DNA of 25,241 nucleotides from a virus: positions 1 through 25,241 of the IMG/VR virus record IMGVR_UViG_3300021364_002627; one strand, written 5' to 3'. The notes beneath the pieces were generated by a model. The model was not told where the DNA came from, made no database searches, and saw only the letters and a program-made list of their open reading frames with translations. Positions 3,235 through 25,241 of the stretch are shown here, piece after piece. The position numbers and the translations under genes are program-made. Position 1 is the first letter of the stretch, and every line of letters starts with the position of its first letter.

Positions 3235-3241
3235 TATTTAT
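3235..3241 (-). promoter_or_regulatory. Late-type promoter box for the baseplate operon
   Basis: The minus strand reads ATAAATA here, 17 bases or more upstream of the ATG at 3218, with a strong ribosome site between. T4 late promoters, read by gp55-RNA polymerase, have the box TATAAATA; marine relatives use similar TAAATA-type boxes. The box touches the -35 element of the oppositely directed gp55 promoter (3241-3246). Assignment rests on sequence similarity and position only. Confidence 0.5.
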
Positions 3242-8030: not shown

Positions 8031-8031
8031 T
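8013..8031. terminator. Hairpin between convergent genes, possible bidirectional terminator
   Basis: An eight-base-pair stem with loop GCA (AGAACGAC/GTCGTTCT) sits exactly at the stop of the minus-strand hemD-like gene and at the end of the plus-strand structured region. Only weak T-runs follow on either strand (CTTTTC on the minus side), so termination is plausible but not certain. Confidence 0.4.
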
Positions 8032-8600
8032 TAACTGTTAGGATCAAAAGATTCACAGTCCAACCATAAACTGTGATCAGGATCGCAAGATTCTGTGTGC
8101 CGCAGTCTGGTGTGACTCCAATTACGAATCTCCAACTCTTTCAACACAGAATCTGAATACACATGAATCACATCAGGTTCCAATTTCAATATCTGTCTGA
8201 TGGCATCTGGATCCGGTTTGGATTCATACGTCTGTATCACTGTGCATTCTGGTACATGTGAAAAATCTCGTGCATACTTGTCTCCACGGAGCCAAGTGAT
8301 TGGTCCTATTTCTTTTGAACGCAGTTTGAGTTCGTCCGCACGATGTCTCCAATGAATTTTGTTTTCCTGGAAGCCCGCCTCTACGAGGCGATCGTAAGTC
8401 TTGGCACCCACCGCATACACCTTTTGCTCCAACAGTTTGTTAATGCTGTGAGCATAATGATTGATGGCTTCAATGTGTGTGATGATGAGTGGTTGTTCCG
8501 CCGCTGGCGAATGTTTTACTGGGAATGTCTTAAGACATGGAATCCACAGGTCATCTTCATCCAACTCCGATGGGCGAACAATTTGTGTGTATATCTGCAT
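8031..8600 (-). CDS. hemD: HemD-like protein (uroporphyrinogen-III synthase family)
   Basis: Uroporphyrinogen-III synthase closes hydroxymethylbilane into the macrocycle from which haem, sirohaem and cobalamin derive. The 189-residue product shows the family's low-conservation landmarks in the right order: an N-terminal IVRP; VYAVGAKTYDRLVEAGF (61-77), matching the 'AVGxxTAxxLxxxG' stretch; ITWLRGDKYARDF (101-113), matching the 'LRGxxxRDxL' strand-loop; TYESKPDP (124-131), matching 'VYxxxP'; and IHVYSDSVLKEL (145-156), matching the 'SxSxVxxF' segment. It is shorter than bacterial HemD (about 240-250). HemD is poorly conserved, so fold assignment is moderately firm and activity is inference. 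The gene stands alone on the minus strand downstream of gp26/gp51. A HemB homologue lies about 10 kb away on the other strand. Confidence 0.55.
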   Translation of the reverse strand: MQIYTQIVRPSELDEDDLWIPCLKTFPVKHSPAAEQPLIITHIEAINHYAHSINKLLEQKVYAVGAKTYDRLVEAGFQENKIHWRHRADELKLRSKEIGPITWLRGDKYARDFSHVPECTVIQTYESKPDPDAIRQILKLEPDVIHVYSDSVLKELEIRNWSHTRLRHTESCDPDHSLWLDCESFDPNS

Positions 8601-9793: not shown

Positions 9794-9803
9794 TTTATCT
9801 CCA

Positions 9804-9810
9804 ATAAATA
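9804..9810 (+). promoter_or_regulatory. Late-type promoter box for the tape-measure/head operon
   Basis: ATAAATA on the plus strand in the 116-base divergent gap, about 100 bases before the ATG at 9910. A second TTTAAATA-like run lies near 9889-9896, closer to the gene. Late-promoter assignment rests on similarity to the T4 TATAAATA box. Confidence 0.4.
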
Positions 9811-9849
9811 CAAGAACAAAGTTTGATTTAACTGTTCTTAATATACTCA

Positions 9850-9856
9850 TATTTAG
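9850..9856 (-). promoter_or_regulatory. Late-type promoter box for gp26/gp51
   Basis: The minus strand reads CTAAATA, 57 bases upstream of the gp26 start at 9793. With the plus-strand box at 9804-9810 it would make an overlapping divergent promoter pair in the short intergenic gap. Confidence 0.35.
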
Positions 9857-9909
9857 TGAAGTGGATTAAGTACGTACATAATGATTGGATTTAAATACAT
9901 TTTGGTAAC

Positions 9910-12120: not shown

Positions 12121-13853
12121 TGAGTTGGAAAAAATATTTTACAGAGGTGCCTATTGAAGGCGCAACAGCAGGCATGAACTCACCATTGGGTGGCGGTACA
12201 GGTAGCAAGCCAGGACCTGCCAAGTCAAACTACTCATCATATCTTCCAGATGTGTACAGCGGTGCTCCAAACAGAATAGAACGTTACGGGCAATACAATG
12301 TGATGGACTTAGATTCAGAAGTGAATGCGGCATTGGATATTCTAGCAGAATTCTGCACACAGAACAACACACAGAACGGTACACCATTCAAATTTGATTA
12401 CAGACAAAAAGCAACCAATTCAGAAATACAGATCATTGAACAGTATCTACAACAGTGGTGCAAGTTGAATGACATGAGCAAAAGAGTTTTTAAAATTATT
12501 CGTAATGTGTTCAAGTACGGTGACGCATTTTTTATAAGAGATCCAGAAACTAAGAAACTGTTTCACGTGGACCCAGCAAAAGTTTCTAAAATTATTGTGA
12601 ACGAAAGCACAGGCAAAACACCTGAGCAGTATGTGGTGAGAGACATCAACTTTAACTTTAAGAATCTAGTAGCCACGACTCCATATCAAACCACAGGAAA
12701 TGTGACAGGTGGTGGTTCAGGATATTTAACAGGCGGAGTCAGAGGAATGGTTGGAGCAAACTATCAAGATTCTCCAGGCACGAGATTTGCCACTGGACAG
12801 AGAGAAATTGCCGTGGATGCTGATCACATCATGCACTTGAGTCTTTCAGAAGGCTTGGACAACAATTTTCCATTTGGTAATTCATTACTAGAATCGATTT
12901 TCAAAGTTTACAAACAGAAAGAATTACTAGAAGACGCAATTATAATTTACAGAGTACAGAGAGCACCTGAAAGACGTGTGTTCTACATTGACGTAGGTAA
13001 TATGCCATCGCACTTGGCAATGCAGTTCGTAGAAAGAGTTAAAACAGAGATCCATCAAAGACGTATTCCATCAGCAACAGGTGGTGGAACCAACGTGATT
13101 GACTCCAGTTACAATCCATTATCAATCAATGAAGATTATTTCTTCCCACAAACAGCAGAAGGTAGAGGTTCTAAAGTGGAAACACTGCCAGGTGGTACTA
13201 ATCTTGGTGAGATTGATGACCTGAAATACTTCACAAACAAACTGTTGAGAGGTTTGCGTATTCCAAGTTCGTATCTACCAACAGGCGCAGATGATTCACA
13301 GAGTCAATACAATGATGGCAGAGTGGGCACAGCATACATTCAAGAATTAAGATTCAACAAATACTGTGAAAGACTGCAAAATTTAGTGTCAGATGAATTC
13401 AATCAAGAGTTCAAACGTTATCTATTGGAAAAAGGTGTTAATATTGATACAGGAATGTTTGATATCAAGTTTCAACCACCAATGAACTTTGCTTCTTACA
13501 GACAATCAGAAGTGGACAACCAAAGAATCAGCACATACACACAGATTGCTGGTGTGCCATTTGTGAGCAAACGTTATGCTCTTTCAAGATTCTTAGGATT
13601 GTCTCCAGAAGAAATGGCAGAGAATGAAAGATTGTGGAGAGAAGAAAACGATGAAACCATGCAGGCAAAACCAACAACGTCAGCAACTGAATTAAGAAGT
13701 GCTGGAGTCAGCACAGCAGGTATCCAAGCAGACTTGGATGCGGCAGAACCTGAAGCACCAGCAGGTGAACCTGGTGGAGAAGAACAACCGTCACCAGCGG
13801 CAGGTGGAGGTGCAACAGGTGGAACTGGTGGGACACCAACTCCGGGCGCCTAA
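12120..13853 (+). CDS. gp20: Portal vertex protein gp20
   Basis: gp20 forms the dodecameric portal through which DNA enters the head and to which the tail joins. The 577-residue product shows the T4-family core: ERYGQYNVMDLDSEVNAALD near residue 58, FKIIRNVFKYGDAFFIRDPE, then ILESIFK-like and YRVQRAPERRVFYIDVGNMP near 280, NEDYFFPQTAEGRGSKVETL near 340, and LKYFTNKLLRGLRIPSSYLP near 370. It exceeds T4 gp20 (524) by about 50 residues, mostly a low-complexity Gly/Pro/Ala/Glu-rich C-terminal tail (from about 535), and has a short Gly-rich segment near residue 25. Its ATG shares one base with the stop of the preceding gene. Confidence 0.93.
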   Translation: MSWKKYFTEVPIEGATAGMNSPLGGGTGSKPGPAKSNYSSYLPDVYSGAPNRIERYGQYNVMDLDSEVNAALDILAEFCTQNNTQNGTPFKFDYRQKATNSEIQIIEQYLQQWCKLNDMSKRVFKIIRNVFKYGDAFFIRDPETKKLFHVDPAKVSKIIVNESTGKTPEQYVVRDINFNFKNLVATTPYQTTGNVTGGGSGYLTGGVRGMVGANYQDSPGTRFATGQREIAVDADHIMHLSLSEGLDNNFPFGNSLLESIFKVYKQKELLEDAIIIYRVQRAPERRVFYIDVGNMPSHLAMQFVERVKTEIHQRRIPSATGGGTNVIDSSYNPLSINEDYFFPQTAEGRGSKVETLPGGTNLGEIDDLKYFTNKLLRGLRIPSSYLPTGADDSQSQYNDGRVGTAYIQELRFNKYCERLQNLVSDEFNQEFKRYLLEKGVNIDTGMFDIKFQPPMNFASYRQSEVDNQRISTYTQIAGVPFVSKRYALSRFLGLSPEEMAENERLWREENDETMQAKPTTSATELRSAGVSTAGIQADLDAAEPEAPAGEPGGEEQPSPAAGGGATGGTGGTPTPGA

Positions 13854-13855
13854 AC

Positions 13856-13862
13856 ATAAATA
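13856..13862 (+). promoter_or_regulatory. Late-type promoter box after the portal gene
   Basis: ATAAATA lies in the 14-base gap between gp20 and the next ATG (13868). If it fires, transcription would start almost at that ATG, so its useful target is more likely the gene at 14111 or beyond. Confidence 0.35.
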
Positions 13863-13867
13863 ATTTT

Positions 13868-14107
13868 ATGATATTGCGTGAACTATTCTATTATGATCAA
13901 TTGACAACAGAACCTGTTGAACAGAAACAGTATGACCCCTCTGAAGATCAATCAATTATGAATCTTGACGACACACGCAAAACAAGACTCACACTAAAAC
14001 AGATCAATAAAGCCAGAAAAGCCGGCGAGTTTCACAAAGACGAACAACAAAAAGAACTGAAGTTTGTAAGAGATATGTACGGCGCCGCTAATCAGCCTGA
14101 GGTATAA
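13868..14107 (+). CDS. Small conserved head-region protein between portal and core genes
   Basis: This 79-residue protein has no function I can name. Its second half, KTRLTLKQINKARKAGEFHK followed by KELKFVRDMYG, resembles small proteins found just after the portal gene in marine T4-like phages. In T4 that place is held by gp67, a prohead core protein, so a core or assembly role is possible but not shown. The N-terminus (MILRELFYYDQL) is followed by an acidic stretch. No ribosome site precedes the ATG, so it may depend on translation running on from gp20, 14 bases away. The next gene begins three bases after its stop. Confidence 0.6.
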   Translation: MILRELFYYDQLTTEPVEQKQYDPSEDQSIMNLDDTRKTRLTLKQINKARKAGEFHKDEQQKELKFVRDMYGAANQPEV

Positions 14108-14110
14108 TAA

Positions 14111-14698
14111 ATGTCCGTTGCTTTTGTGTTAGGCAATGGTCTCAGTCGCAAGCCAATTCCATTAGAACCACTTAAACCTTTGGGCAAAGTTTATGCCTGC
14201 AATGCTGTTTACAGAACATTCACACCTGATCACTTAGTGGCAGTGGATGCGAAGATGATCAATGAGATCTGTACAGCAGGTGCTCAACTAAAAATGCCGG
14301 TTTGGACCAATCCAAACAGAGCATATAAAAAGTACAAAGGCTTAAATTACTTTGAACCCAGTCTAGGCTGGTCATCAGGCCCCACAGCACTGTGGTTGGC
14401 AAGCAAACACGGTCATCAATTGATATATTTGTTAGGTTTTGACTTCACTGGCACACCGGATGGCAAACTGAACAACATATTCGGTGACACACCCAACTAC
14501 AAAAAGAACACAGATGTGGCCACATACCATGGCAACTGGAATCGTCAAACAAGCATTATATTACAGAAGAATTCCTTGAAGAGATATATAAGAGTAGTGC
14601 CGGAAGGCACTGATGTTTTTGAGGCCCAAGACCTTAAAAAATACACAAATTACAGTGAAATCACTGTACAAGAGTTCAAAAGACGCTATCATCTCTAA
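14111..14698 (+). CDS. Glycosyltransferase/sialyltransferase-like Rossmann protein
   Basis: The 195-residue product starts with a nucleotide-binding-like strand-loop VAFVLGNGLSRKPI (3-16), followed by KVYACNAVYRTFTPDHLVAVD (26-46). The middle carries GWSSGPTALWLASKHGHQLIYLLGFDF (about 84-110). This pattern (GNGxS, CN, SSGxxA, IYLLGFDF) recalls the DUF115 and GT42-type sialyltransferase fold, in which the sugar nucleotide binds after the first strand. The identification is by pattern only. In a phage it might decorate virion proteins or host glycans. It sits among capsid genes, between the portal and core proteins, with a GAGG ribosome site just before ATG 14111. The product is short for a complete glycosyltransferase. 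Confidence 0.5.
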   Translation: MSVAFVLGNGLSRKPIPLEPLKPLGKVYACNAVYRTFTPDHLVAVDAKMINEICTAGAQLKMPVWTNPNRAYKKYKGLNYFEPSLGWSSGPTALWLASKHGHQLIYLLGFDFTGTPDGKLNNIFGDTPNYKKNTDVATYHGNWNRQTSIILQKNSLKRYIRVVPEGTDVFEAQDLKKYTNYSEITVQEFKRRYHL

Positions 14699-14712
14699 TT
14701 TCAGCGTCAAAC

Positions 14713-14728
14713 GGGCCAATATCGGCCC
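14713..14728 (+). other. Small GC hairpin after the glycosyltransferase-like gene
   Basis: GGGCC (14713-14717) pairs with GGCCC (14724-14728) across six bases. The nearest T-run (six T, 14741-14746) is 12 bases further on, so it is not a standard intrinsic terminator, but it could slow transcription or stabilise the upstream mRNA end. Confidence 0.35.
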
Positions 14729-14757
14729 ATTATCTACCTATTTTTTGCACCTATCGG

Positions 14758-14764
14758 TAAATAA
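14758..14764 (+). promoter_or_regulatory. Late-type promoter box upstream of the prohead core gene
   Basis: TAAATAA in the 107-base gap, about 42 bases upstream of ATG 14806, which has a strong AGGAG ribosome site. This would drive the gp68-gp21-gp22-gp23 head unit. Confidence 0.45.
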
Positions 14765-14805
14765 TACATGACAGTCTTATCATAAACGTTAATAGGAGAA
14801 AAATA

Positions 14806-15825
14806 ATGTCAGATAAAAGTAAATTCGAGCAAATGCTTGAAAAATTAGTTGCTGATGACAGATCAGCGGCTGAAGAGATTTTCCATGATATCGTTGTGGA
14901 GAAATCAAGATCAATCTACGAAGGTCTTTTAGAAGATGATATCAAAGATATCGAAGTAGAAGAAACTTCAAAAGAAGACTCAAAAGAAGAAGAAACAACA
15001 GAAGCGACTAAAGAAGACAAAAAAGAAGACGACAAAGTTGAAGAAAAAACTTCTGAAGAGTCAAAAGAAGATGAAGCAGTAGAAGAAGCATCAAAAGACG
15101 AATCTTCAGAAGAAGAAACTAAAGAAGAAGAGTCAAAAGATGAAGAAGCAACTGATGAATCTTTATTAGATGTAGAACAAACAGAAGTAGCACCGGTTGA
15201 AGCAGGTGGTGACGCAACTGACGACATGGTTGGCGACATCGAAATGCCAGCAGGTGACGAAAATGGTGAAGAAAATGGCGACGACTCTGAAAAAGGTGAA
15301 GAAGAAATCGAAGACAGAGTAGTTGATCTAGAAGATGCAATTGACGACCTTAAAGCCGAATTTGAAAAAATGATGGGCGACAAAGGTGACGACGCTGAAG
15401 ACAATGGCGACGACAATGGCGACGAAGAAGAAAAAGAAGACGAAGCCATCGTGAGTCAAGATGCAGAGGGAGAAACTGTAGAAGTTGCTCCTGAACTTGG
15501 TGAACAACCAGCAGTAGAGTCAAAAGACAACGCACCAAAATCAGCAAGTGAAGAAATTAGAGAATATGTAAACAAAGTTAGTGTTTCACACAACGATGGT
15601 TCAGATTCATCTAAATCACCAGTTGCTGGCAAAAACGACATGGGTGGAACTGCTTCTAACATCGCTAAAGGTGGTGAGGAAAAAGGTGGTAAAGCACCTG
15701 CTCCAAAAGAAGAGAACGCAGGCAACATCAATGTACCAGGTGGTAAGGCTAAACTAGCGGCGGCACCAAAGGCCAAGACTAACACAGAAGATGACGCTTC
15801 TGCGAAGTCAACAATTGGCAGTTAA
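14806..15825 (+). CDS. gp68: Acidic prohead core protein, gp68-like
   Basis: The first 45 residues, including FEQMLEKLVADDRSAAEEIF and VVEKSRSIYEGLL, match the conserved N-terminal helix pair of gp68-type prohead core proteins of marine T4-like phages. Its place between portal and protease gp21 is the usual one. The rest of the 339 residues is extremely low in complexity: long Glu/Asp/Lys/Ser runs (residues 46-135), Asp/Gly/Asn-rich runs with DDNGDDNGDEEE near 205, and an Ala/Lys/Gly-rich tail. It is far longer than T4 gp68 (141). As a core protein it would fill the prohead and be digested by gp21. The acidic region might be released as peptides that stay with the DNA, as T4 internal peptides do; that is inference. 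Confidence 0.75.
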   Translation: MSDKSKFEQMLEKLVADDRSAAEEIFHDIVVEKSRSIYEGLLEDDIKDIEVEETSKEDSKEEETTEATKEDKKEDDKVEEKTSEESKEDEAVEEASKDESSEEETKEEESKDEEATDESLLDVEQTEVAPVEAGGDATDDMVGDIEMPAGDENGEENGDDSEKGEEEIEDRVVDLEDAIDDLKAEFEKMMGDKGDDAEDNGDDNGDEEEKEDEAIVSQDAEGETVEVAPELGEQPAVESKDNAPKSASEEIREYVNKVSVSHNDGSDSSKSPVAGKNDMGGTASNIAKGGEEKGGKAPAPKEENAGNINVPGGKAKLAAAPKAKTNTEDDASAKSTIGS

Positions 15826-15849
15826 TAATAGGTAGTATAAGGACAACGG

Positions 15850-16473
15850 ATGTTATCATTACGTGAGACGCTGACTTTCGACCAAGCCGGTATAGTCGTT
15901 GAGACTAAGGATGAGCACAACGGTAAATCCCTTTACATGAAGGGAATCTGCATTCAGGGAGGTGTTAAAAACGCCAACCAGAGAGTGTATCCTGTTAACG
16001 AAATCCAAAGGGCTGTCAGCACACTTAACGACCAGATCACTGGCGGATACTCAGTGTTAGGCGAAGTGGACCATCCAGAAGGACTTAATATTAACCTAGA
16101 CCGTGTCAGCCACATGGTGAATGAAATGTGGATGGACGGACCAAACGGATACGGCAAATTAAAAGTATTACCAACCCCTATGGGACAACTGGTTAAAACT
16201 ATGCTGGAAAGCGGAGTTAAACTGGGAGTGTCTAGTAGGGGTTCAGGTAACGTCAAAGAAGACGGATCCGGTGAAGTATCAGATTTTGAAATCATCACAG
16301 TAGACATCGTAGCACAACCATCGGCGCCAGGAGCATATCCTGAACCAATCTACGAACATCTAATGAACACAAAAGGTGGTTTAAAAGCATTTAATACAGC
16401 AAGGGACACAAAGGCACAAAAATATCTAAAAGAACAACTAATAAACATAATTGGAAAACTCCAATCTAAATAG
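15850..16473 (+). CDS. gp21: Prohead core protease gp21
   Basis: gp21 is the serine protease in the prohead core that cuts scaffold, core and capsid proteins during head maturation. The 207 residues (T4: 212) include the expected active-site segments: GEVDHPEG with H75, LGVSSRGSG with S128/S129, and FEIITVDIVAQPSAPGAYPE with D152. The fold is that of the herpesvirus-type protease family. An AAGGA ribosome site precedes ATG 15850. A six-base-pair hairpin (16450-16465) lies within its last codons just before the gp22 ribosome site, 12 bases upstream of the gp22 start. Confidence 0.93.
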   Translation: MLSLRETLTFDQAGIVVETKDEHNGKSLYMKGICIQGGVKNANQRVYPVNEIQRAVSTLNDQITGGYSVLGEVDHPEGLNINLDRVSHMVNEMWMDGPNGYGKLKVLPTPMGQLVKTMLESGVKLGVSSRGSGNVKEDGSGEVSDFEIITVDIVAQPSAPGAYPEPIYEHLMNTKGGLKAFNTARDTKAQKYLKEQLINIIGKLQSK

Positions 16474-16484
16474 GAGAAAAAGTA

Positions 16485-17573
16485 ATGTTAGAAGCACTGA
16501 AATCACTTTTTGAAAACAACGCAGTTTCAGAAGAGATCAGAGCAGAAATAGAACAAGCATGGAACCAGAAGGTTGAAGAAAACAAACTTTCTGCCACTGC
16601 TGATCTACGTAAAGAATTTGCTGAGAAGTATGAACACGACAAAGCAAATTTAACAGACGCTGTTGACAAAATGGTATCTGAAAGATTAGAAGCAGAAATG
16701 GCAGACTTTGCGGCGGACAAGAAAGCACTTGCTGAAGAAAAAGTTAAGTATGCTACTCAAATCCGTGAGCATTCGGACAAGTTAAAGTCGTTTGTGTTTG
16801 AACAACTGAAAGGCGAAATTGCTGAATTACACTCAGACCAAAAGGTTATGGCAGAAAACTTCCAGAAACTTGAGGACTTTGTGGTAGAAGCTCTATCTAA
16901 AGAAATCGCTGAATTTCAAAAAGACAAACAAGACGTTGCTGAGACAAAAGTACGTCTTATCAGAGAAGCGAAAGCACATTTTGAAAAAGTTAGAAGTAAC
17001 TTTGTGAAAAAAGGTGCTGAAAAAGTGTCAGAAGTAGTAGGTAAAACTCTTAAAAAAGAGATTGCTTCACTAAAAGAAGACATTGACGCGGCTCGCAAAA
17101 ATGACTTTGGTCGCAGACTGTTTGAATCTTACGCTCAAGAGTACACACAATCATTCTTGAACGAAAAAGGTGAAACAGCCAAACTTCTAAAAGTAGTGGA
17201 CATGGCGAAACTACAGGCGGAAGAAGCGAAGAAGACTGTCGAAGAGAAACAGAAAATGGTTGAAGCAAAAGAAAAAGAAATTGCTACAATCAAAGAAGCG
17301 GCAGAGAGAGAAAAAGTGATCAATGAGTTAGTACAACCATTGAACTCTGAACAAAAAGAAATAATGAACAATCTACTGGAGAGTGTGCAGACGAGTGCTT
17401 TACGAAAGCAATTCGAAAAGTACATACCGTCTGTATTAAACGGTAGGACTCCAGCGAAAAAACAGGCGTTAAAAGAAGGCACAGAAGTTACAGGCGACAA
17501 ACAAATTAACATTGTAAACGGCGGTCAATTCAACAGCAATCTTGTTGATATAAAAAGACTGGCTGGAATCTAA
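16485..17573 (+). CDS. gp22: Prohead core scaffold protein gp22
   Basis: This 362-residue, almost wholly helical, Lys/Glu-rich protein is the main scaffold around which gp23 assembles and which gp21 later digests. Evidence is its place between gp21 and gp23, its long coiled-coil stretches (about 60-300), and the C-terminal part: EKVINELVQPLNSEQKEIMN, then TSALRKQFEKYIPSVL, and VNGGQFNSNLVDIKRLAGI near the end, as in marine gp22 proteins. It is longer than T4 gp22 (269). A TAGGAG ribosome site precedes ATG 16485, and 17 bases separate it from gp23. LxE sites for gp21 are present (for example L2-E3). Confidence 0.88.
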   Translation: MLEALKSLFENNAVSEEIRAEIEQAWNQKVEENKLSATADLRKEFAEKYEHDKANLTDAVDKMVSERLEAEMADFAADKKALAEEKVKYATQIREHSDKLKSFVFEQLKGEIAELHSDQKVMAENFQKLEDFVVEALSKEIAEFQKDKQDVAETKVRLIREAKAHFEKVRSNFVKKGAEKVSEVVGKTLKKEIASLKEDIDAARKNDFGRRLFESYAQEYTQSFLNEKGETAKLLKVVDMAKLQAEEAKKTVEEKQKMVEAKEKEIATIKEAAEREKVINELVQPLNSEQKEIMNNLLESVQTSALRKQFEKYIPSVLNGRTPAKKQALKEGTEVTGDKQINIVNGGQFNSNLVDIKRLAGI

Positions 17574-17590
17574 AAAAGGAGAAAACGACA

Positions 17591-18769
17591 ATGTCAGAAC
17601 TAACAGAAACTCGCTGGCAGGACACAAAGAGTGCGTTATTAGAAGGTCTATCAGGCAATAAAAGAGCCGTGATGGAATCGACTCTAGAAAATACTAAAAA
17701 GTATTTGGCAGAGGCGGCAACAGCAGGTGCTACATCGGCTGGTAACGTTGCTACTTTAAACAGAGTGATCCTACCGGTGATCAGAAGGGTTATGCCTACA
17801 GTTATCGCTAACGAATTAGTTGGCGTTCAACCAATGACAGGCCCTGTGGGTCAAATCCACACATTAAGAGTAAGATACGCAGAAACGGCTACTTCAGGTG
17901 GCGGTGTTGCGGCAGGTGACGAAGCACTATCACCATTCAAAATCGCTCAAGGTTACTCAGGTGACGATGCGGCTGATCCAGATGGAGCGGCGGATGCAAC
18001 AGCGACTAAAGAAGGTACTGGTGGTAAAGCAATGTCAATCCAAATCTTGAAACAAACAGTTGAAGCAAAAACTCGTAAGTTACAAGCAAGATGGACATTC
18101 GAATCTGCACAAGATGCTCAAGCACAACAAGGTATTGATGTAGAAGCAGAAATCATGGCGGCATTAGCCCAAGAGATTACTGCTGAGATTGATCAAGAGA
18201 TCATCACTTCATTAAGATCTTTAGCAGGTGCTCAATCATCTGGTACTTACAACCAAGCGGCTGTATCAGGCACTGCGACTTTCGTAGGTGATGAACATGC
18301 GGCATTGGCTGTATTAATCAACAGAGCGGCTAACAAAATCGCACAGAACACAAGACGTGGTGCTGGTAACTTTGCTGTGGTATCACCATTAGCATTAACA
18401 GTACTTCAGTCTGCTACAACTTCTGCGTTCGCAAGAACAACAGAAGGTACGTTCGAAGCACCAACAAACCAAAAAATGGTTGGTACTTTAAACAGTGCGA
18501 TGAAAATATATGTTGACACTTACGCAAGTGACTCAACAGATGTTTTAGTTGGTTACAAAGGCTCATCAGAAGCAGATGCGGCGGCATTCTATTGCCCATA
18601 CATTCCGTTAATGTCTTCTGGTGTTGTTCTTGATCCATCAACTTTTGAGCCAGTTGTTTCTTTCATGACTAGATATGGTTATGTAGAGTTAAACAACACA
18701 GCGTCATCTTTAGGTAACGCGGCTGATTATGTTGAGACGATCGGTGTATCGAACACATCTTTCAGTTAA
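17591..18769 (+). CDS. gp23: Major capsid protein gp23 (short form)
   Basis: gp23 builds the head hexamers. Core family segments are clear: ATLNRVILPVIRRVMPTVIA near 53-72, GVQPMTGPVGQIHTLRVRY, then RKLQARWTFESAQDAQAQ near 163, IDQEIITSLR, the GAGNFAVVSPLAL strand and YCPYIPLMSSGVV with TRYGYVELNN near the C-terminus. At 392 residues it is much shorter than T4 gp23 (521), suggesting loss of the insertion domain. The N-terminal propeptide carries LAE at 39-41, fitting the gp21 consensus (L/I)xE and giving a mature start AATAGATSAG. AAGGAG lies nine bases before ATG. An intrinsic terminator follows 22 bases after the stop, and no gp24-like gene is present nearby. Confidence 0.95.
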   Translation: MSELTETRWQDTKSALLEGLSGNKRAVMESTLENTKKYLAEAATAGATSAGNVATLNRVILPVIRRVMPTVIANELVGVQPMTGPVGQIHTLRVRYAETATSGGGVAAGDEALSPFKIAQGYSGDDAADPDGAADATATKEGTGGKAMSIQILKQTVEAKTRKLQARWTFESAQDAQAQQGIDVEAEIMAALAQEITAEIDQEIITSLRSLAGAQSSGTYNQAAVSGTATFVGDEHAALAVLINRAANKIAQNTRRGAGNFAVVSPLALTVLQSATTSAFARTTEGTFEAPTNQKMVGTLNSAMKIYVDTYASDSTDVLVGYKGSSEADAAAFYCPYIPLMSSGVVLDPSTFEPVVSFMTRYGYVELNNTASSLGNAADYVETIGVSNTSFS

Positions 18770-18791
18770 TCTTAACGTTAACGAATATATT

Positions 18792-18816
18792 AAAGGGGGC
18801 TTCGGCCCCCTTTTTT
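18792..18816 (+). terminator. Strong intrinsic terminator after gp23
   Basis: GGGGGC and GCCCCC enclose the very stable tetraloop TTCG, with flanking A:T pairs, followed at once by a run of six T. This is a textbook rho-independent terminator that ends the head-gene transcript and isolates the next cassette. Confidence 0.95.
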
Positions 18817-18836
18817 ATTGACTTTTTGCTCAGGTC

Positions 18837-18865
18837 TTGACACTGGTGCCAAAATGTGCTATAAT
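18837..18865 (+). promoter_or_regulatory. Perfect-consensus extended sigma70 promoter of the hemB cassette
   Basis: TTGACA (18837-18842), a 17-base spacer and TATAAT (18860-18865) match consensus at all positions; TGC before TATAAT adds an extended -10. Predicted start is near 18872, about 22 bases before the lipoprotein ATG, with AAGGA at 18884-18888 as ribosome site. Confidence 0.92.
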
Positions 18866-18893
18866 TACAACGACAACACTAACAAGGAACACA

Positions 18894-19097
18894 ATGAAGA
18901 ATATTGCAATATTACTAACCACTTTATTCATAGTGTCTGCTTGTTCTATCAAAGAACCAAGAGTAGCATTTGGAAAAAAATGCGAACAGAATGGTGACAA
19001 AATCACTTATTCATATGTTTGGATCTATGATAAAAACATTGGCTTACCTGCTGATGAAGAACAATGTGCGGCGCTTCCAAGTAAAGAAAAGAAGTAA
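18894..19097 (+). CDS. Small secreted lipoprotein
   Basis: The ATG at 18894 is chosen because AAGGA lies six bases upstream and the earlier in-frame ATGs lie in the promoter. The 67 residues open with a lipoprotein signal peptide MKNIAILLTTLFIVSAC: a Lys, a hydrophobic core and a lipobox VSAC with C17 as the lipidated residue. The mature part is about 50 residues and polar, with two more cysteines (C29 and C57) that could form a disulphide. Function unknown. Phage lipoproteins made early often block superinfection or alter the envelope, but a host-derived passenger is as likely. It is the first gene of the cassette, five bases before hemB. Confidence 0.75.
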   Translation: MKNIAILLTTLFIVSACSIKEPRVAFGKKCEQNGDKITYSYVWIYDKNIGLPADEEQCAALPSKEKK

Positions 19098-19102
19098 ACA
19101 CA

Positions 19103-19906
19103 ATGGACCTTATCCAGCCACTATTTGTCAATCAATCTGATACAAACAAGTCGGCTGGATTGGGTATTGAAAACAGCAGTTGGTCACACAAAGAAATTTT
19201 AGATAGAATTCAAAAAGATGTAGATTTAGGTGTTGAAAGTTTCCTACTGTTCATAACACCAGACACAAAAACTTGGACTCCTGATTGGAGTTTTAATCAA
19301 GAAATTGTAAACAAAATCAAAACACGTTTCCCCAACATAGAATTAATTGTGGATGTGTGTCTATGTTCCACACTGCCAGATGGTCATTGTAGAGTGCTGG
19401 ATCGACCAGACACCAGTGAAGCACTGTTGATTGACCTAGGGAAGAAATTGGAATCAGCAGGTGCAGACATACTGGCTCCTTCAGACATGGGAGACAGAAC
19501 AGTTGAAAATTTGAAACGTGAAACAAAAAGTGAAGTGATGGCTTATGTGAAATACAGAAGTGTGTTCTACAGTTCATTTAGAGATCTAGCCAACAGTTCA
19601 CCCACATCAGGCAGATCATATCAATTGCCCATAGATGGCAATTGGGGTATGATAGCCACAGCCAATCAGTACAGCAGTCAAAAAGCAGATTACATATTGC
19701 TTAAACCAGCACAGCACAGTTTGAATGAATTGGGCATGATAAAATGTGGCACATACACACCGGTAGGCTTGTATCAAGTGAGTGACGAATACAGAGCACT
19801 GCCCAGCATTGATCACCAACTGGAATTGGCACAAGTGTATCGCAGAGCAGGAGCAAAATTTTTAGTGTCATACGGCACAAGAGACATGGTGGGCAAATTT
19901 AAATAA
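19103..19906 (+). CDS. hemB: HemB homologue: delta-aminolevulinate dehydratase (porphobilinogen synthase)
   Basis: HemB condenses two 5-aminolevulinate molecules into porphobilinogen, the first common tetrapyrrole precursor. The 267-residue product has the family motifs in order: IQPLFV at the N-terminus; metal site DVCLCSTLPDGHC (C86, C88, C96, with the usual +2/+10 spacing); AGADILAPSDMGDRTV (119-134); VMAYVKYRSVFYSSFRD with the first active-site lysine K150; ADYILLKP with Schiff-base lysine K201 (51 residues later, against 52 in E. coli); and PVGLYQVSDEYRAL (220-233). Three cysteines suggest the zinc-dependent type. It is about 55-60 residues shorter than cellular HemB, mainly lacking the N-terminal arm used for octamer assembly, so oligomer state may differ. 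It is the second gene of the sigma70-driven cassette. All key residues are present, so activity is likely. Confidence 0.85.
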   Translation: MDLIQPLFVNQSDTNKSAGLGIENSSWSHKEILDRIQKDVDLGVESFLLFITPDTKTWTPDWSFNQEIVNKIKTRFPNIELIVDVCLCSTLPDGHCRVLDRPDTSEALLIDLGKKLESAGADILAPSDMGDRTVENLKRETKSEVMAYVKYRSVFYSSFRDLANSSPTSGRSYQLPIDGNWGMIATANQYSSQKADYILLKPAQHSLNELGMIKCGTYTPVGLYQVSDEYRALPSIDHQLELAQVYRRAGAKFLVSYGTRDMVGKFK

Positions 19907-19910
19907 CGGT

Positions 19911-20183
19911 ATGAAACACGAACAACTGCTGATAGAATTCAAGGAATATCAAGACAGATTACAGATATGGAAACGCAATCACGGCATATTCATCAATGAC
20001 ATCAAACGTTTGGAAAACACCCTCAACAAAATGTATGATGAATACACCAACATATTGGTGGATTATCGCAGAACACGTAAACAACGCTATCTAGATGAAG
20101 CCAATCAAGTACTGATTCAAGCACTGGAATTAGCCAAGAAATTTTCAAAAGTGGAACTATTAGCATCTCTAAGCAAACGATAA
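19911..20183 (+). CDS. Small coiled-coil protein, unknown function
   Basis: This 90-residue protein is highly charged and helical throughout: an N-terminal EFKEYQDRLQIWKRNHG, a heptad-like DIKRLENTLNKMYDEYTNIL, a basic YRRTRKQRYLDEA and a C-terminal helix. There is no motif I recognise. It begins four bases after the hemB stop and is probably the last gene of the lipoprotein-hemB transcript. A late-type box (20179-20186) overlaps its stop codon and starts the next unit. A role tied to hemB is possible from position only. Confidence 0.65.
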   Translation: MKHEQLLIEFKEYQDRLQIWKRNHGIFINDIKRLENTLNKMYDEYTNILVDYRRTRKQRYLDEANQVLIQALELAKKFSKVELLASLSKR

Positions 20184-20186
20184 ATA
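20179..20186 (+). promoter_or_regulatory. Late-type promoter box for the virion-surface genes
   Basis: GATAAATA overlaps the stop of the coiled-coil gene and lies about 90 bases upstream of ATG 20277. The leader it would give is structured (20210-20243). Confidence 0.5.
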
Positions 20187-20209
20187 CTTCTATAAACATA
20201 TGTTTTGGG

Positions 20210-20243
20210 CCAGTTTCGACTGGACTTATGGGGACAAAACCCC
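20210..20243 (+). promoter_or_regulatory. Two-hairpin mRNA leader
   Basis: CCAGT (20210-20214) and ACTGG (20219-20223) enclose a TTCG tetraloop, and GGGG (20230-20233) pairs with CCCC (20240-20243). Both lie in the untranslated leader between the late-type box and the AGGAG ribosome site of the 20277 gene. They could protect the 5' end of an abundant late mRNA. Confidence 0.5.
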
Positions 20244-20276
20244 GTAGACCTAGAACGTCAAAAAAGGAGAAAACAA

Positions 20277-20669
20277 ATGGGAAGACCAGTAAACAGCAGA
20301 TACTTCGGTACTGTACTTGATGAAGTAGGTAGCGAAGCGTCAGAAAATATCACAGTAAACGTAAAAGTTACTGGAGAAGCAATATCAAACACAGGTATAA
20401 TCTTAAGCCAAAGATCAGTTAACAAATTCAAAGTTAATGATGCTAACGATGGTTCAGGTACTGACGGTATCTGTACACTTGTTGACAAAGATGCAGGTGA
20501 TTTAGCAGATGCTGAAATGACCTTAATTGGTTATGTTGGTGGCACAGGTGATGGTGTTAATATTAAAAAACTTTACAACAGAACTTGTAGAGATTTTTCT
20601 AACAACAGATACACTTGGGCAATGTCTGATGACTCAACATCAAACGTTATGGTGTTAACTGCACTGTAA
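20277..20669 (+). CDS. Virion structural protein of the marine T4-like type
   Basis: The start is ATG 20277, because AAGGAG lies eight bases upstream; the longer frame from 20205 runs through the hairpin leader. The 130 residues begin MGRPVNSRYFG and are mostly beta, with KFKVND, GICTLVDK, AEMTLIGYVGG and a C-terminal NRTCRDFSNNRYTW. I recall similar short proteins among the structural genes of marine T4-like phages, where they are taken to be head or tail decoration components; the exact role is unknown. It has a late-type promoter box and a structured leader, and an 11-base-pair hairpin follows its stop, so it seems to be expressed as its own, probably abundant, message. Confidence 0.65.
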   Translation: MGRPVNSRYFGTVLDEVGSEASENITVNVKVTGEAISNTGIILSQRSVNKFKVNDANDGSGTDGICTLVDKDAGDLADAEMTLIGYVGGTGDGVNIKKLYNRTCRDFSNNRYTWAMSDDSTSNVMVLTAL

Positions 20670-20678
20670 TAGATGATT

Positions 20679-20704
20679 TTTAGGGAGTGGCAACACTCCC
20701 TAAA
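20679..20704 (+). other. Stable intergenic hairpin with GCAA tetraloop
   Basis: TTTAGGGAGTG (20679-20689) and CACTCCCTAAA (20694-20704) form an 11-base-pair stem closed by the GNRA loop GCAA. No T-run follows, so it is a poor intrinsic terminator. It sits between two structural genes and more likely stabilises the 3' end of the upstream message or guides processing. Confidence 0.6.
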
Positions 20705-20717
20705 CAAAAGGAACAGG

Positions 20718-21731
20718 ATGTCAAAAACAGTTTATTTAGAAACAGGTGATTACAAGATAAAGGTAGTAGATACCAATAACGAAATCACTTTGGATTCAGC
20801 ACTGACTCACATCACAGGTGATTTACGTGTTGAAGGTGAAACCACCACTGTTAACACAACAAATTTAGAAATCGAAGACAACATTATTGTACTAAACAAA
20901 AATGAAACAGGTACAGGAGTTGGAGAAGGTACAGCAGGTATTGAAGTAGACAGAGGCACTGTAAACGGAGTACAATTTGTATATGACGAATCAATTGCTT
21001 GGAATGATCCAAGCACACAAACAGTTTCTCAAGGACCAAATTTACAAGGACCAGGATACGGTTCTTACAAAGTTTCATCAGCAGATGGAAATGACATTTT
21101 AGCATTAAGAGTTGCCAACATCAACAACAACAATGCAATTTATTTTGAGCCAGGCGGAACTGGCACTTTACGTTTAGGTGGTAGCATTGCTCCAGCCACT
21201 TACATCAGCAGAATGAATGATGACAACGATATTCCAAACAAAAAATATGTGGATGATGAAATCAATGCTGTGGTGATTGGTGCGGCATTTCCAAGAATAG
21301 TTGACGGTGACACAGAAGTAAAAATCACAGATAATTCCACATCAGGCAACACATCAAAAATAGAAATCAAAATTGATAACAATCTATTAGGATTATGGGA
21401 GCCAACAAGATTTGAATTGTATCAACAAACCACAGATATTGGCAGTATAAGAATTGAGGATGACACAATCAGCAGTTTGAATTCAAATCAGGATTTAGAA
21501 TTGGTAGCACCAGGCACGGGGTCTGTTAGGGTAAATGACTCCTTTGTGATCAACAACAGACCAAGCATCCAAGATGCCGCTATAGACCCGTTATTCGACG
21601 CCAATGGCGTTAAATTGTATGCGAAATCACCATCTGGTGGCGATACAGGATTATATTTTGTAAATACAAACGACACAAGAGGAGAAGTGATCAGCAAGAA
21701 CAGAGCACTGCTTTTCGGACTATTATTTTAA
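20718..21731 (+). CDS. Tail-fibre-like virion protein
   Basis: ATG 20718 is preceded by AAAGGA, so the longer frame from 20673, which runs through the hairpin, is rejected. The 337 residues are beta-rich with fibre-like repeats. A segment reading DLRVEGETTTVNTTNLEIED then NIIVLNKNETG (about 35-65) is common in structural proteins of marine T4-like phages, and a later one reads YFEPGGTGTLRLGG. A short helix DIPNKKYVDDEI precedes a C-terminal beta domain with LELVAPGTGSVRVN. Such proteins are usually fibre or fibre-associated. The next gene follows nine bases later. Confidence 0.6.
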   Translation: MSKTVYLETGDYKIKVVDTNNEITLDSALTHITGDLRVEGETTTVNTTNLEIEDNIIVLNKNETGTGVGEGTAGIEVDRGTVNGVQFVYDESIAWNDPSTQTVSQGPNLQGPGYGSYKVSSADGNDILALRVANINNNNAIYFEPGGTGTLRLGGSIAPATYISRMNDDNDIPNKKYVDDEINAVVIGAAFPRIVDGDTEVKITDNSTSGNTSKIEIKIDNNLLGLWEPTRFELYQQTTDIGSIRIEDDTISSLNSNQDLELVAPGTGSVRVNDSFVINNRPSIQDAAIDPLFDANGVKLYAKSPSGGDTGLYFVNTNDTRGEVISKNRALLFGLLF

Positions 21732-21740
21732 GGAGAAACA

Positions 21741-22067
21741 ATGGCAATAACAAACACAGAAGTAAATGGTACAGTTGATGTTTTGACAGTTCCAGCAGGC
21801 AAAAGTTATGCTATCACATCTATATTGATCACAAATGTTGGACCAGAAGATGCCACAGGTGGTGAAGACAGCAACTTCACGTTGTACGCTGTGACAGGTT
21901 CTTACAATGCCAACAGATCAATGATTGTGAACAACGCATTATTACCAGGAGCAGAAACATTCACTTTAGATTCAGAAAAAATTGTTCTGAGTGCTGGTGA
22001 TTTTATCAGAGTTGCTCAATCAGGTGCTAACAACTTATCAGTTGTGGTCAGTTACTTGGAGGTGTAA
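21741..22067 (+). CDS. Small virion structural protein
   Basis: The 108 residues (MAITNTEVNGTVDVLTVPAG) form a beta-sandwich-like pattern with SYAITSILITNVGP, FTLYAVTG and a C-terminal RVAQSGANNLSVVVSYLEV. I do not recognise a named family, although similar short proteins accompany fibre genes in marine phages. A strong AAGGAG ribosome site precedes the ATG. The stop shares bases with the ATG of the next gene (GTAATGA), so the two are translationally coupled. Confidence 0.6.
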   Translation: MAITNTEVNGTVDVLTVPAGKSYAITSILITNVGPEDATGGEDSNFTLYAVTGSYNANRSMIVNNALLPGAETFTLDSEKIVLSAGDFIRVAQSGANNLSVVVSYLEV

Positions 22068-22864
22068 TGAGATATCTCAAGCGTCAAAGCACAAACAAAA
22101 GATTACTCAGAGGTAAAGGTTTAATCTACACTCAGTACGAAGAAATTGAAGCACAATCAACTGGTGCTTTTTTAGTTCCAAAAGGAACTCAAGCACAAAG
22201 ACCAGTTACTCCTCAAGAAGGTCAATTAAGATTTAATACCACACTAAGACAATTGGAAGTTTATGAATCGTTGGGCGGCGGTGCTCCGGTTTGGAAACAG
22301 TTTAGATTATCAGAACCACAAAATATTGTGGTACAAAATTTAAGTAACGGTGATGACATAGAAGTAAACTTTGGAGTACTTGCTGATGGATTCGGTTCAG
22401 GTTTGGGTTATCCAACTGCTCCAGAAAACATTTTAGTTATGGTAGAAAACGTACTTCAAATACCAAACACAAATTACACATTAACACAAAACCCATGCGA
22501 TGTGAACAGTAATTTAATCAGTGCTGTTGCCAATTACAACTCAACTGGAGTTGGTGCTTTTGTTAGTGGTAATACTTCATTGATTGACTGGCAGTCAAAA
22601 GGATATCATGTGGATCAAACTTTAATTGTAACTGGTTCTGCGACCAACAATGGAACCTACACAATAACAGCAGTGACTCCGAGCCATTTGAGTGTGGATC
22701 AACTGTTGAACACTGAGGCAAACCTAGGTGGTGGAAACACTTTTAGAATGGACGGAAGAAGTTCTGTTACAGGTTTACCATATCCGTCAGGTCAATATAT
22801 CACTTTCGGAACAGCAGTTCCAACAGGTAAACCAGTCACAGTTTTACACAACTTTGACAAATAA
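22067..22864 (+). CDS. Fibre-associated virion structural protein
   Basis: This 265-residue protein begins with a basic segment (MRYLKRQSTNKRLLRGKG). A fibre-type element near residues 35-75 reads GAFLVPKGTQAQRPVTPQEG followed by QLRFNTTLRQLEVYE and VWKQF; that 'fixed number of entries, then a W' pattern is typical of phage fibre proteins. A beta-rich body follows, including LIVTGSATNNGTYTITAVTP. Function beyond virion structure is unknown. It overlaps the preceding gene by one base, and 41 bases separate it from the next long fibre gene. Confidence 0.55.
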   Translation: MRYLKRQSTNKRLLRGKGLIYTQYEEIEAQSTGAFLVPKGTQAQRPVTPQEGQLRFNTTLRQLEVYESLGGGAPVWKQFRLSEPQNIVVQNLSNGDDIEVNFGVLADGFGSGLGYPTAPENILVMVENVLQIPNTNYTLTQNPCDVNSNLISAVANYNSTGVGAFVSGNTSLIDWQSKGYHVDQTLIVTGSATNNGTYTITAVTPSHLSVDQLLNTEANLGGGNTFRMDGRSSVTGLPYPSGQYITFGTAVPTGKPVTVLHNFDK

Positions 22865-22882
22865 TACCTTTACCAAAATTCA

Positions 22883-22889
22883 ATAAATA
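22883..22889 (+). promoter_or_regulatory. Late-type promoter box upstream of the long fibre gene
   Basis: ATAAATA, 17 bases before the ATG at 22906, with AAAGGAG between. Its spacing to the start matches the box before the gp48/gp54-like gene on the minus strand. Confidence 0.5.
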
Positions 22890-22905
22890 CTAAAAAAGGA
22901 GCAAT

Positions 22906-25241
22906 ATGGCAGTAACCAATGTAGGTAGAATATCAGGTCCGTTACTCAAAGCAAATCTAACAAGAACATCCGATTTGGCTTTTGAATCGGATTTGTTATA
23001 CATTGGACACACAAATGGTCGAATAGGTATTCGCAATGATGCTCCTACCAGAGACCTTCAAGTGTCAGGAGACGCAATATACAGAGGGGATTTGATTGCA
23101 ACAAACTCGGCAACCTTTGGCAACATTCATATAGACGGTCCAACAGATACTTTTTCCACAATGACTGGTCCAATCAACATGATTTCAGGATCCAGTTTCC
23201 AAATGACAGAATTGCGAACAGACAATTTGGCATTTACCAACAGCGGAATTAGAGCATACAACAATGATGACATCAAGATTTATCCAGGTCCTGGCACAGG
23301 CATATTCAATATTCCATCAGACTTAAAATCCTATGGAAATATTCAAGCCTCAGGCGACATCACTTTTGATGGAAACATTTTTATTGGTGGCGACAGTCAA
23401 GACGACACATTAAGTTTCGAGGGAGACATAGAATCTGATTTAATACCAGATCAAAATCTTACATACAACATAGGTCAAACAGATCAGCGTTGGGGTAGAG
23501 TCGAAGTGAAATCCATGACTGGATTAAACGACATCACCGTTGATAACACAATCTCGTTGGCAGGTGTAAGAGTTAATTTAGGAATTGAAAACAAATGGTA
23601 TGTGAGTACAAATGGTACTAATGATTTAGCAGGTAATCACCCTAACTTTGCTTTTGGATCGATCAAATACGCATTACAATACATCGAAGAAAGCACAGCA
23701 GGACCACACGAGTTACACATATTACCTGGCACATACATTGAAGAGTTTCCACTTGAAGTGCCCGCTAACACCACTGTAAAAGGCGCCGGCATGAGGTCAG
23801 TCACTATAAAACCCACAGTGCCAGGAAGATACAAAGATGCATTTTTGATGAACGATGCATCAATGGTTACAGATTTAACTGTCAAAAATTTCCATTATGA
23901 TTCGAATCAAGATGTTGGTTATGGTTTTAGATTTGCTCCCAATGCCGGCATCGTAACAAAATCTCCTTATGTACAAAACATTACTGTGATCACCCAAGGC
24001 GAAACAAGAACAGCAGATGATCCAAGAGGTTTTGATTCCGGAGACGCAGGTAGAGGTGCTTTGGTAGATGGTTCAGTGTTGGACACAGAATCTCCAAGAG
24101 CTTCCATGTTGTTCAATGCTGTGACTTTTATTACTCCAGGCGCAGATGCAATCACCAGTAAAAACGGAGCAAGAACAGAAATCATAGACTGTTTCACATA
24201 TTTTGCTGACACCAGTATTAAATTGTTGAGTGGTTCAGAATCACGCATAATCGCTTCAGCCAGTGTGTATGGCAACAAAGGTATCACAGCAGATGGTGTG
24301 GACACCAAAGGTTATGCTATATCACACAATTTCGCTTATGTAGGCACAGGCAAAGATGTTGAAAATGATGAATCATTGATTGATCAAAATAATGAAACAG
24401 AAGAAACCAACAGTGGAAGGGTTTATTATGTCAGTCAAGATCAAGGCGGAGATTTTAGAGTAGGTGATAATTTCATTGTTGATTTCGGCAAAGGCACAAC
24501 ATCAATTGCTGTAAATGATGGTGATCTTGGTGCTTCAACATTGACTGTTGGAGTTGCTGGTACAACCACATTCATTGATGCCACTAAAATTGATGTGCCT
24601 GACTTTAGAATCACCAACAACACTATTCAAACACTTTCAAATGGATTTACGATCAGTGCGGCAGGGTCAAACTCGGTGAACATGAATGCCAATGTGTTGA
24701 TGCCAAATGTTGATATCACAGGTGATGTCACAATAGGTGGATCAGCAATTAATTTTGGAAATGAAGCAGGAGACACAGTGGATTTCGCTATGGATTTTGA
24801 ACAAGATTTATTGCCTTCACAAGACACACAGAGCAACATAGGTTCCAACACAAAAAGATGGAAACAATTGAATTCAGCAAGATTCACAGACAACAGCATT
24901 GAAATTCACAACAATATTGTTCAAGTGACAGACACCAACTCAGAATTAGAATTCAGAGGCAGTGGCACAGGATCGGTCAAACTGGAAGATGTAAAATTTA
25001 AAACCACCATCACTTCTGATCAAGGTGATGTTGCATTCAGTGCAGGTGGTGATACAACTGTAATTGATACTACAAGTCATATCAATTTACCTGCAGGCAC
25101 CACAGCACAAGATCCTGGTGTAGGTAATGCCATAAGATTTGATACAGATCTAAATGAATTTGAATTGTTTTCAACAGGCAAAATAGCACTCAACGGAATC
25201 AAAGACGGAGACAGGGACACACAAATAGATTTAAACAGCAA
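22906..25241 (+). CDS. Long beta-helical tail fibre/adhesin, partial (C-terminus beyond right edge)
   Basis: The frame is open from ATG 22906 to the right edge: at least 778 residues. The start has AAGGAG seven bases upstream. The N-terminal 210 residues have fibre repeats (GRIGIRNDAPTRDLQVSGD). A parallel beta-helix, pectate-lyase-like module begins near 229 with WYVSTNGTNDLAGNHPNFAF and HELHILPGTYIEEFPLEVPA. After about residue 500 fibre repeats return. The motif 'DL-P-Q-(N/S)-x-NIG-x-x-RW' occurs twice, near 181-201 (ending TYNIGQTDQRWG) and near 628-648 (ending QSNIGSNTKRWK), so the module is duplicated either side of the beta-helix. The likely role is host recognition. Truncated by the window, so the receptor-binding tip is not seen. 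Confidence 0.75.
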   Translation, partial: MAVTNVGRISGPLLKANLTRTSDLAFESDLLYIGHTNGRIGIRNDAPTRDLQVSGDAIYRGDLIATNSATFGNIHIDGPTDTFSTMTGPINMISGSSFQMTELRTDNLAFTNSGIRAYNNDDIKIYPGPGTGIFNIPSDLKSYGNIQASGDITFDGNIFIGGDSQDDTLSFEGDIESDLIPDQNLTYNIGQTDQRWGRVEVKSMTGLNDITVDNTISLAGVRVNLGIENKWYVSTNGTNDLAGNHPNFAFGSIKYALQYIEESTAGPHELHILPGTYIEEFPLEVPANTTVKGAGMRSVTIKPTVPGRYKDAFLMNDASMVTDLTVKNFHYDSNQDVGYGFRFAPNAGIVTKSPYVQNITVITQGETRTADDPRGFDSGDAGRGALVDGSVLDTESPRASMLFNAVTFITPGADAITSKNGARTEIIDCFTYFADTSIKLLSGSESRIIASASVYGNKGITADGVDTKGYAISHNFAYVGTGKDVENDESLIDQNNETEETNSGRVYYVSQDQGGDFRVGDNFIVDFGKGTTSIAVNDGDLGASTLTVGVAGTTTFIDATKIDVPDFRITNNTIQTLSNGFTISAAGSNSVNMNANVLMPNVDITGDVTIGGSAINFGNEAGDTVDFAMDFEQDLLPSQDTQSNIGSNTKRWKQLNSARFTDNSIEIHNNIVQVTDTNSELEFRGSGTGSVKLEDVKFKTTITSDQGDVAFSAGGDTTVIDTTSHINLPAGTTAQDPGVGNAIRFDTDLNEFELFSTGKIALNGIKDGDRDTQIDLNS

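Follow-up and report, generated by a model that had tools for sequence, protein, structure and literature searches.

The hemB locus

The window, which is the whole stretch of 25,241 nucleotides analysed here and a complete IMG/VR record, comes from a large marine virus of bacteria and probably covers only part of its genome. It encodes a porphobilinogen synthase (HemB, PBGS), which forms the first ring of haem, downstream of a T4-type capsid gene. The relevant features are as follows:

3296–4150, plus strand: gp55-type late sigma factor (PHROG 12791, 274 bits), with the only other perfect sigma-70 promoter, at 3241
8031–8600, minus strand: HemD-like ORF of 189 amino acids, candidate uroporphyrinogen-III synthase (Pfam HEM4, HHalign)
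17591–18769, plus strand: gp23 major capsid protein, T4-type (Pfam Gp23, 334 bits)
18792–18813, plus strand: intrinsic terminator after gp23 (9-pair stem with 6 GC, followed by a T-run)
18837–18865, plus strand: sigma-70 promoter, TTGACA-17-TATAAT and an extended -10 (TG), by consensus match
18894–19097, plus strand: small lipoprotein-like ORF of 67 amino acids, first gene of the hemB transcription unit (lipobox-like VSACS read by eye; syntenic in marine relatives)
19103–19906, plus strand: hemB, arm-less porphobilinogen synthase of 267 amino acids (Pfam ALAD, AlphaFold, Foldseek, dN/dS)
19911–20183, plus strand: ORF of 90 amino acids directly 3' of hemB, probably co-transcribed (4 nt after the hemB stop; syntenic in relatives)

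The hemB reading frame starts with ATG, five nucleotides past the end of the lipoprotein-like ORF, for which Pfam and PHROG searches gave no family match. Other neighbours in the window comprise gp20, gp21, gp46/47 and baseplate genes. The original prediction of a T4-like phage with hemB inside a capsid-gene cluster was borne out by gp23 upstream of hemB, and the capsid and portal proteins are closest to those of large (jumbo) T4-like phages of several hosts. In relatives with HemB identities from 90% down to about 40%, the gene order is conserved, with hemB after gp23 and followed by the same genes as in the window. Between the portal and prohead genes of the window, the ORF at 14111–14698 gave a weak PHROG match to an alpha-2,3-sialyltransferase (E = 1e-4) and has a dN/dS below 0.1.

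Family, fold and active site

The Pfam family ALAD (PF00490) matched residues 2–262 of the window HemB with 144 bits (E = 6e-42; curated cut-off 24.6 bits). Membership in the PBGS family, as originally proposed from the letters alone, is therefore confirmed by profile search, but the NCBIfam equivalog for porphobilinogen synthase (NF006762) scored 125 bits (E = 3e-36) and missed its cut-off of 297 bits. Judged by these profiles, the window HemB belongs to a divergent subfamily and is not a standard PBGS equivalog. A sequence search of the PDB returned a PBGS of known structure (E = 6e-19). With 88 homologues as input, AlphaFold modelled the monomer with a pLDDT of 96.4 and a pTM of 0.94. The top 50 PDB matches of this model in Foldseek were all PBGS, with TM scores of 0.90–0.92 to the E. 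coli and human enzymes. That is, AlphaFold and Foldseek together predict a PBGS-type TIM barrel. Another TIM-barrel family was considered and ruled out by the Pfam ALAD and Foldseek matches. When a viral structure library was searched with the same model, no PBGS-like match was found (best TM 0.54).

To compare single residues, 39 viral HemBs were aligned with 49 cellular HemBs and E. coli HemB. The active-site positions of the window gene, each invariant in all 39 viral proteins, are:

19352–19390, plus strand: D84 and the zinc-type cysteines C86, C88 and C96 (E. coli D118, C120, C122, C130)
19550–19552, plus strand: K150 codon (catalytic lysine, K195 in E. coli)
19703–19705, plus strand: K201 codon (Schiff-base lysine, K247 in E. 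coli)

Altogether, ten residues were found in 39 of 39 viral HemBs, namely D118, C120, C122, C130, S165, K195, R205, Q220, K247 and Y312 (E. coli numbers). The two lysines and three cysteines named in the original prediction thus align with their E. coli counterparts, and by these residues the metal site of viral HemB is of the cysteine (zinc) type. The accompanying claim of an intact active site holds for the lysines and the zinc cysteines, but not throughout, since the residue at E. coli R216 is replaced and the sequence is one residue shorter immediately ahead of K150. Both changes count against an active PBGS. We take R216 of E. coli PBGS to contact the substrate; every cellular HemB has Arg or Lys in this column, while viral HemBs never have Arg and only once Lys there, and all 39 carry an Arg one position later. 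The residue before K150 is missing in 20 of the 39 viral HemBs, including that of the window, and these 20 make up the 20-row viral branch of the tree described below.

The dN/dS of hemB was 0.10–0.22 (gp23: 0.07–0.17), by which measure hemB is under purifying selection. Orthologues that are 85–90% identical, with a dN/dS of about 0.1, place the gene far beyond chance.

Loss of the N-terminal arm and the allosteric site

The N-terminal arm (about E. coli residues 1–27) is missing in 39 of 39 viral HemBs, and the window protein begins at about E. coli residue 28. Since the reading frame is open for only about six codons upstream of the hemB ATG, an armed start is not available. The arm, of which most had been expected to be missing, is in fact entirely absent. 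It was present in every cellular homologue checked and in none of the viral clade. A similar split was found for E232, which we take to be the glutamate that binds the allosteric Mg in E. coli PBGS: it occurs in 48 of 49 cellular but 0 of 39 viral HemBs. The canonical octameric allosteric PBGS of bacteria is defined among other things by the N-terminal arm and by E232, and the window HemB has neither. In addition, its loops near E. coli positions 131–139, 177–182, 208–214 and 280–290 are shortened.

In known PBGS, the N-terminal arm is important for high activity, so that an arm-less enzyme could be weak. Active PBGS octamers interconvert with hexamers, the difference between them lying in the first 24 residues; the allosteric Mg site has been described for all bacteria except Rhodobacter (PMC535902). 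Because both the arm and the allosteric Mg glutamate are absent, the phage HemB would be unable to use the octamer/hexamer switch.

Distribution and origin of viral HemB

Scanning IMG/VR with a profile of the phage protein revealed arm-less HemB in at least 97 stretches. A cellular HemB profile, applied to the same database, added only two other HemBs, both with the arm; hence, nearly all viral HemB found belongs to the arm-less lineage. The short three-cysteine HemB highlighted in the original prediction is real, but it is a member of a widespread, deep and virus-only lineage and not an isolated oddity. An ordinary armed HemB was seen on an IMG/VR contig of 399,796 bp (L313), which belongs either to a huge phage or to a bacterium and was then misclassified. 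Matches in the reference-phage collection (at most 31% identical) were not counted as phage evidence, since the records look unannotated or contaminated, with bacterial-looking sequence in drafts.

In a tree of host and viral HemBs, the 39 viral proteins fell on one side of a branch and 50 cellular HemBs on the other (SH-aLRT 100), with a viral stem of about 2.7 changes per site. The closest cellular HemB in a GTDB scan was 34% identical among the matches listed. On this phylogenetic evidence, the 39 viral HemBs are one deep, exclusively viral clade, far from the 50 cellular HemBs.

Since all bacteria have a hemB, one might suspect that the viral contig contains host DNA or a gene recently captured from the host. 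We give this next to no credence, given that many independent contigs have the gene at this very position next to gp23, that its clade is exclusively viral and so remote from the cellular proteins listed, and that the arm separates the cellular homologues checked from the proteins of the viral clade. Contamination and recent host capture are ruled out by synteny, selection and tree, and a host-DNA origin is refuted for the lineage of the window.

The long stem branch bears on a further possibility. Together with the missed NCBIfam cut-off, the lost arm, the changed R216 column and the residue missing before K150, it would also fit a protein that has kept the PBGS fold and lost catalysis, for example one that binds 5-aminolevulinate (5-ALA), zinc or host HemB in order to regulate or block the latter. 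We regard such a protein as improbable, because the ten active-site residues stayed invariant across deep divergence and because other phages carry the gene in operons with other haem enzymes (see below). A catalytically competent enzyme is hence the reading that we pursue.

Promoter and probable timing of expression

That hemB sits inside the capsid-gene cluster, as originally noted, is correct for its position but probably does not extend to the late virion programme, from which the terminator and its own perfect sigma-70 promoter would set it apart. The same terminator was found in most of the nearer relatives. Within positions 9800–25241, the hemB promoter is the only 12/12 match to the sigma-70 consensus. 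Perfect sigma-70 promoters are similarly rare in two relatives of 134 and 100 kb: each has two, upstream of hemB and of the late sigma factor gene. The promoter scan met T4-type late promoters (TATAAATA) too seldom for them to be interpreted. A close version of the hemB promoter is kept in relatives; its spacer usually includes CCAAAAT or CAAAAT (CCAAAAT in the window). This spacer element persists across distant phages, beyond what sigma-70 needs, and could be an operator or the site of an activator.

Lying behind a terminator and a perfect, conserved sigma-70 promoter, hemB is probably an early gene, and the conserved consensus promoter points to probable transcription by the host polymerase early in infection. 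Across the clade, hemB has gp23 on one side and virion genes on the other, which could instead suggest a virion-associated or late protein. This is very unlikely, considering that the terminator parts hemB from gp23, that the sigma-70 promoter is perfect and that HemB occurs in metabolic operons of other phages.

A HemD-like ORF in the window

The only Pfam match of the ORF at 8031–8600 (minus strand) was HEM4/HemD (PF02602), with 19.4 bits (E = 6e-4), which misses the curated cut-off of 27.5 bits. For this reason we call the protein HemD-like and not HemD. Eleven of its 12 orthologues matched HEM4 independently (best E = 3e-5). When a profile of the HemD-like proteins was aligned with a profile of 16 cellular HemD sequences in HHalign, the probability was 94.5% (E = 8e-8, 123 colinear columns), compared to 0.1% in a control with HemB. 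A search of PDB sequences with the HemD-like profile did not find HemD, so that the assignment stands on Pfam and HHalign. A protein 43% identical to the HemD-like protein of the window is encoded in an 82-kb phage record that also carries 5-ALA synthase (ALAS), HemF and HemB. These matches make the ORF a candidate for a divergent HemD-like protein, and with it for a second tetrapyrrole gene in the window.

Haem genes in other phages carrying the same HemB

Some viral contigs encode the same HemB with none of the window's other genes nearby. On two of them (L210 and L192), HemF, HemC, HemE and HemB follow each other in a row, forming hemF-hemC-hemE-hemB operons; the Pfam scores on L210 were 273, 218, 212 and 181 bits, respectively. 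Shorter arrangements are HemF-HemB (L188) and HemF-HemB-haem oxygenase (L033). Among 36 records searched, HemF was found in ten and HemC in eight, while HemE was present in 4 of 30 records and ALAS in three records (577–581 bits). TP_methylase (PF00590; sirohaem/precorrin methylases) was not found in 30 records, and neither ferrochelatase nor GlutR was found in the records searched. For the clade of the window, contigs of up to 134 kb, all of them fragments, contained no ALAS, HemC, HemE, HemF, haem oxygenase, GlutR, ferrochelatase or TP_methylase.

The contigs with haem genes are taken to be phage, based on their IMG/VR status, a DnaB-like helicase that is 52% identical to that of phage PA5oct, and our own reading of their ORFs, which include ribonucleotide reductase and ClpP-like genes. 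By the same kind of reading, genes for IscU/NifU-like proteins, Rieske oxygenase, ClpP, DnaK and class I ribonucleotide reductase seem to be present in the phages with haem genes, at L222–L226 (G030), L213 and L185.

The 134-kb relative of the window (G001) encodes an alternative oxidase (L138:9913-10524; Pfam AOX, E = 1.4e-80), whose closest reference-phage match is from Phage C48C1 (55%). Alternative oxidase is a haem-free quinol oxidase. That a single phage group has both this oxidase and genes for haem precursors hints at respiration.

A proposed role in haem supply

We consider it likely, from the sequences and the structural model, that hemB encodes an early, unregulated and catalytically competent minimised PBGS that sustains haem flux during infection. 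The host RNA polymerase would make hemB mRNA from the start of infection, using the sigma-70 promoter behind the gp23 terminator. In the infected cell, the phage HemB would join two molecules of 5-aminolevulinate to porphobilinogen by zinc-dependent catalysis. Without the arm and the allosteric Mg glutamate, it would form a small, constitutively active oligomer that does not switch between octamer and hexamer. The purpose would be to hold or raise the flux into haem during the shut-down of host genes. Elsewhere among phages, this enzyme would act within a longer phage-borne route (5-ALA synthase, HemB, HemC, HemE and HemF). In the clade of the window, it would be joined by the HemD-like protein, and the remaining steps would be carried out by the host or encoded in parts of the genome outside the sequenced fragments. 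Since most of the haem pathway is found in distant relatives, these viruses probably maintain haem synthesis in infected cells.

HemE and HemF lead only towards protoporphyrin and haem. Since related phages add both enzymes and TP_methylase was missing from the 30 records, haem is favoured over cobalamin and sirohaem as the product. Of the roles first envisaged, relief of host respiration or of haem or cobalamin supply, a contribution to tetrapyrrole supply is plausible, with haem favoured over cobalamin. An active PBGS that serves cobalamin or sirohaem would nevertheless have some points in its favour: all of these products derive from porphobilinogen and uroporphyrinogen III, a HemD-like gene is present, and T4-like marine phages often carry cobS/cobT (PMC7029224). 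Against the HemE, HemF and TP_methylase results, and the haem oxygenase of one relative, we hold it to be unlikely. Supply of haem remains the preferred function.

A broader proposal could equally well prove right or wrong, namely that an ancient, virus-only haem module exists. Large T4-like phages of the sea and of lakes would share an arm-less, unregulated PBGS and a HemD-like protein, to which some add 5-ALA synthase, HemC, HemE and HemF, so that phage enzymes, altered in ways that evade control by the host, would cover most steps between glycine plus succinyl-CoA and protoporphyrinogen. Arm-less HemBs would then represent a new structural class of PBGS without an octamer.

If the enzyme is active, phage intervention in haem synthesis reaches past the first step of the pathway, by means of a PBGS without the arm and the allosteric site to which a central part in its control is ascribed. 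The need of PBGS for an N-terminal arm, and the reason for which lytic phages spend resources on haem, would become testable. With its sigma-70 promoter and its place beside the capsid gene, hemB is a stable gene of widespread, uncultured large marine and freshwater phages.

Comparison with known systems

With cellular zinc-type PBGS/ALAD (E. coli HemB, human ALAD), the phage HemB has in common the TIM barrel, the two lysines, the three cysteines and D118, S165, R205, Q220 and Y312. It differs in the missing arm and allosteric Mg glutamate, the replaced R216, the shortened loops and its size (267 versus 324 amino acids), at about 30% identity. The PBGS of Rhodobacter capsulatus is an active hexamer without allosteric Mg determinants (PMC535902). 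It shares the lack of these determinants with the phage HemB and shows that a PBGS can be active without being an octamer. However, the R. capsulatus enzyme has no catalytic metal site and is reported with a full-size subunit of 35.9 kDa, whereas the phage HemB has zinc cysteines and no arm.

Among phage genes, a 5-ALA synthase (AlaS) is active and complements E. coli, and was described together with HemO and PcyA/X (PMC11480375). Like hemB, these are tetrapyrrole auxiliary metabolic genes of marine and freshwater phages, and AlaS occurs together with the phage HemB on some contigs; that study covers AlaS, HemO and PcyA/X, and HemB, HemC and HemF are unmentioned in its text. For pelagimyophages, which are T4-like and marine, coproporphyrinogen oxidase and porphobilinogen deaminase have been reported (PMC7029224). 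HemB and AlaS are unmentioned there, and the capsid and portal proteins of the window match jumbo T4-like phages best. A search of the open-access literature found no earlier report of a phage HemB. Phage AlaS, HemO and PcyX as well as pelagimyophage HemC and HemF were thus known, while the HemD-like ORF and the presence of the same HemB in hemF-hemC-hemE-hemB operons, some with 5-ALA synthase, or next to hemF and haem oxygenase are new here.
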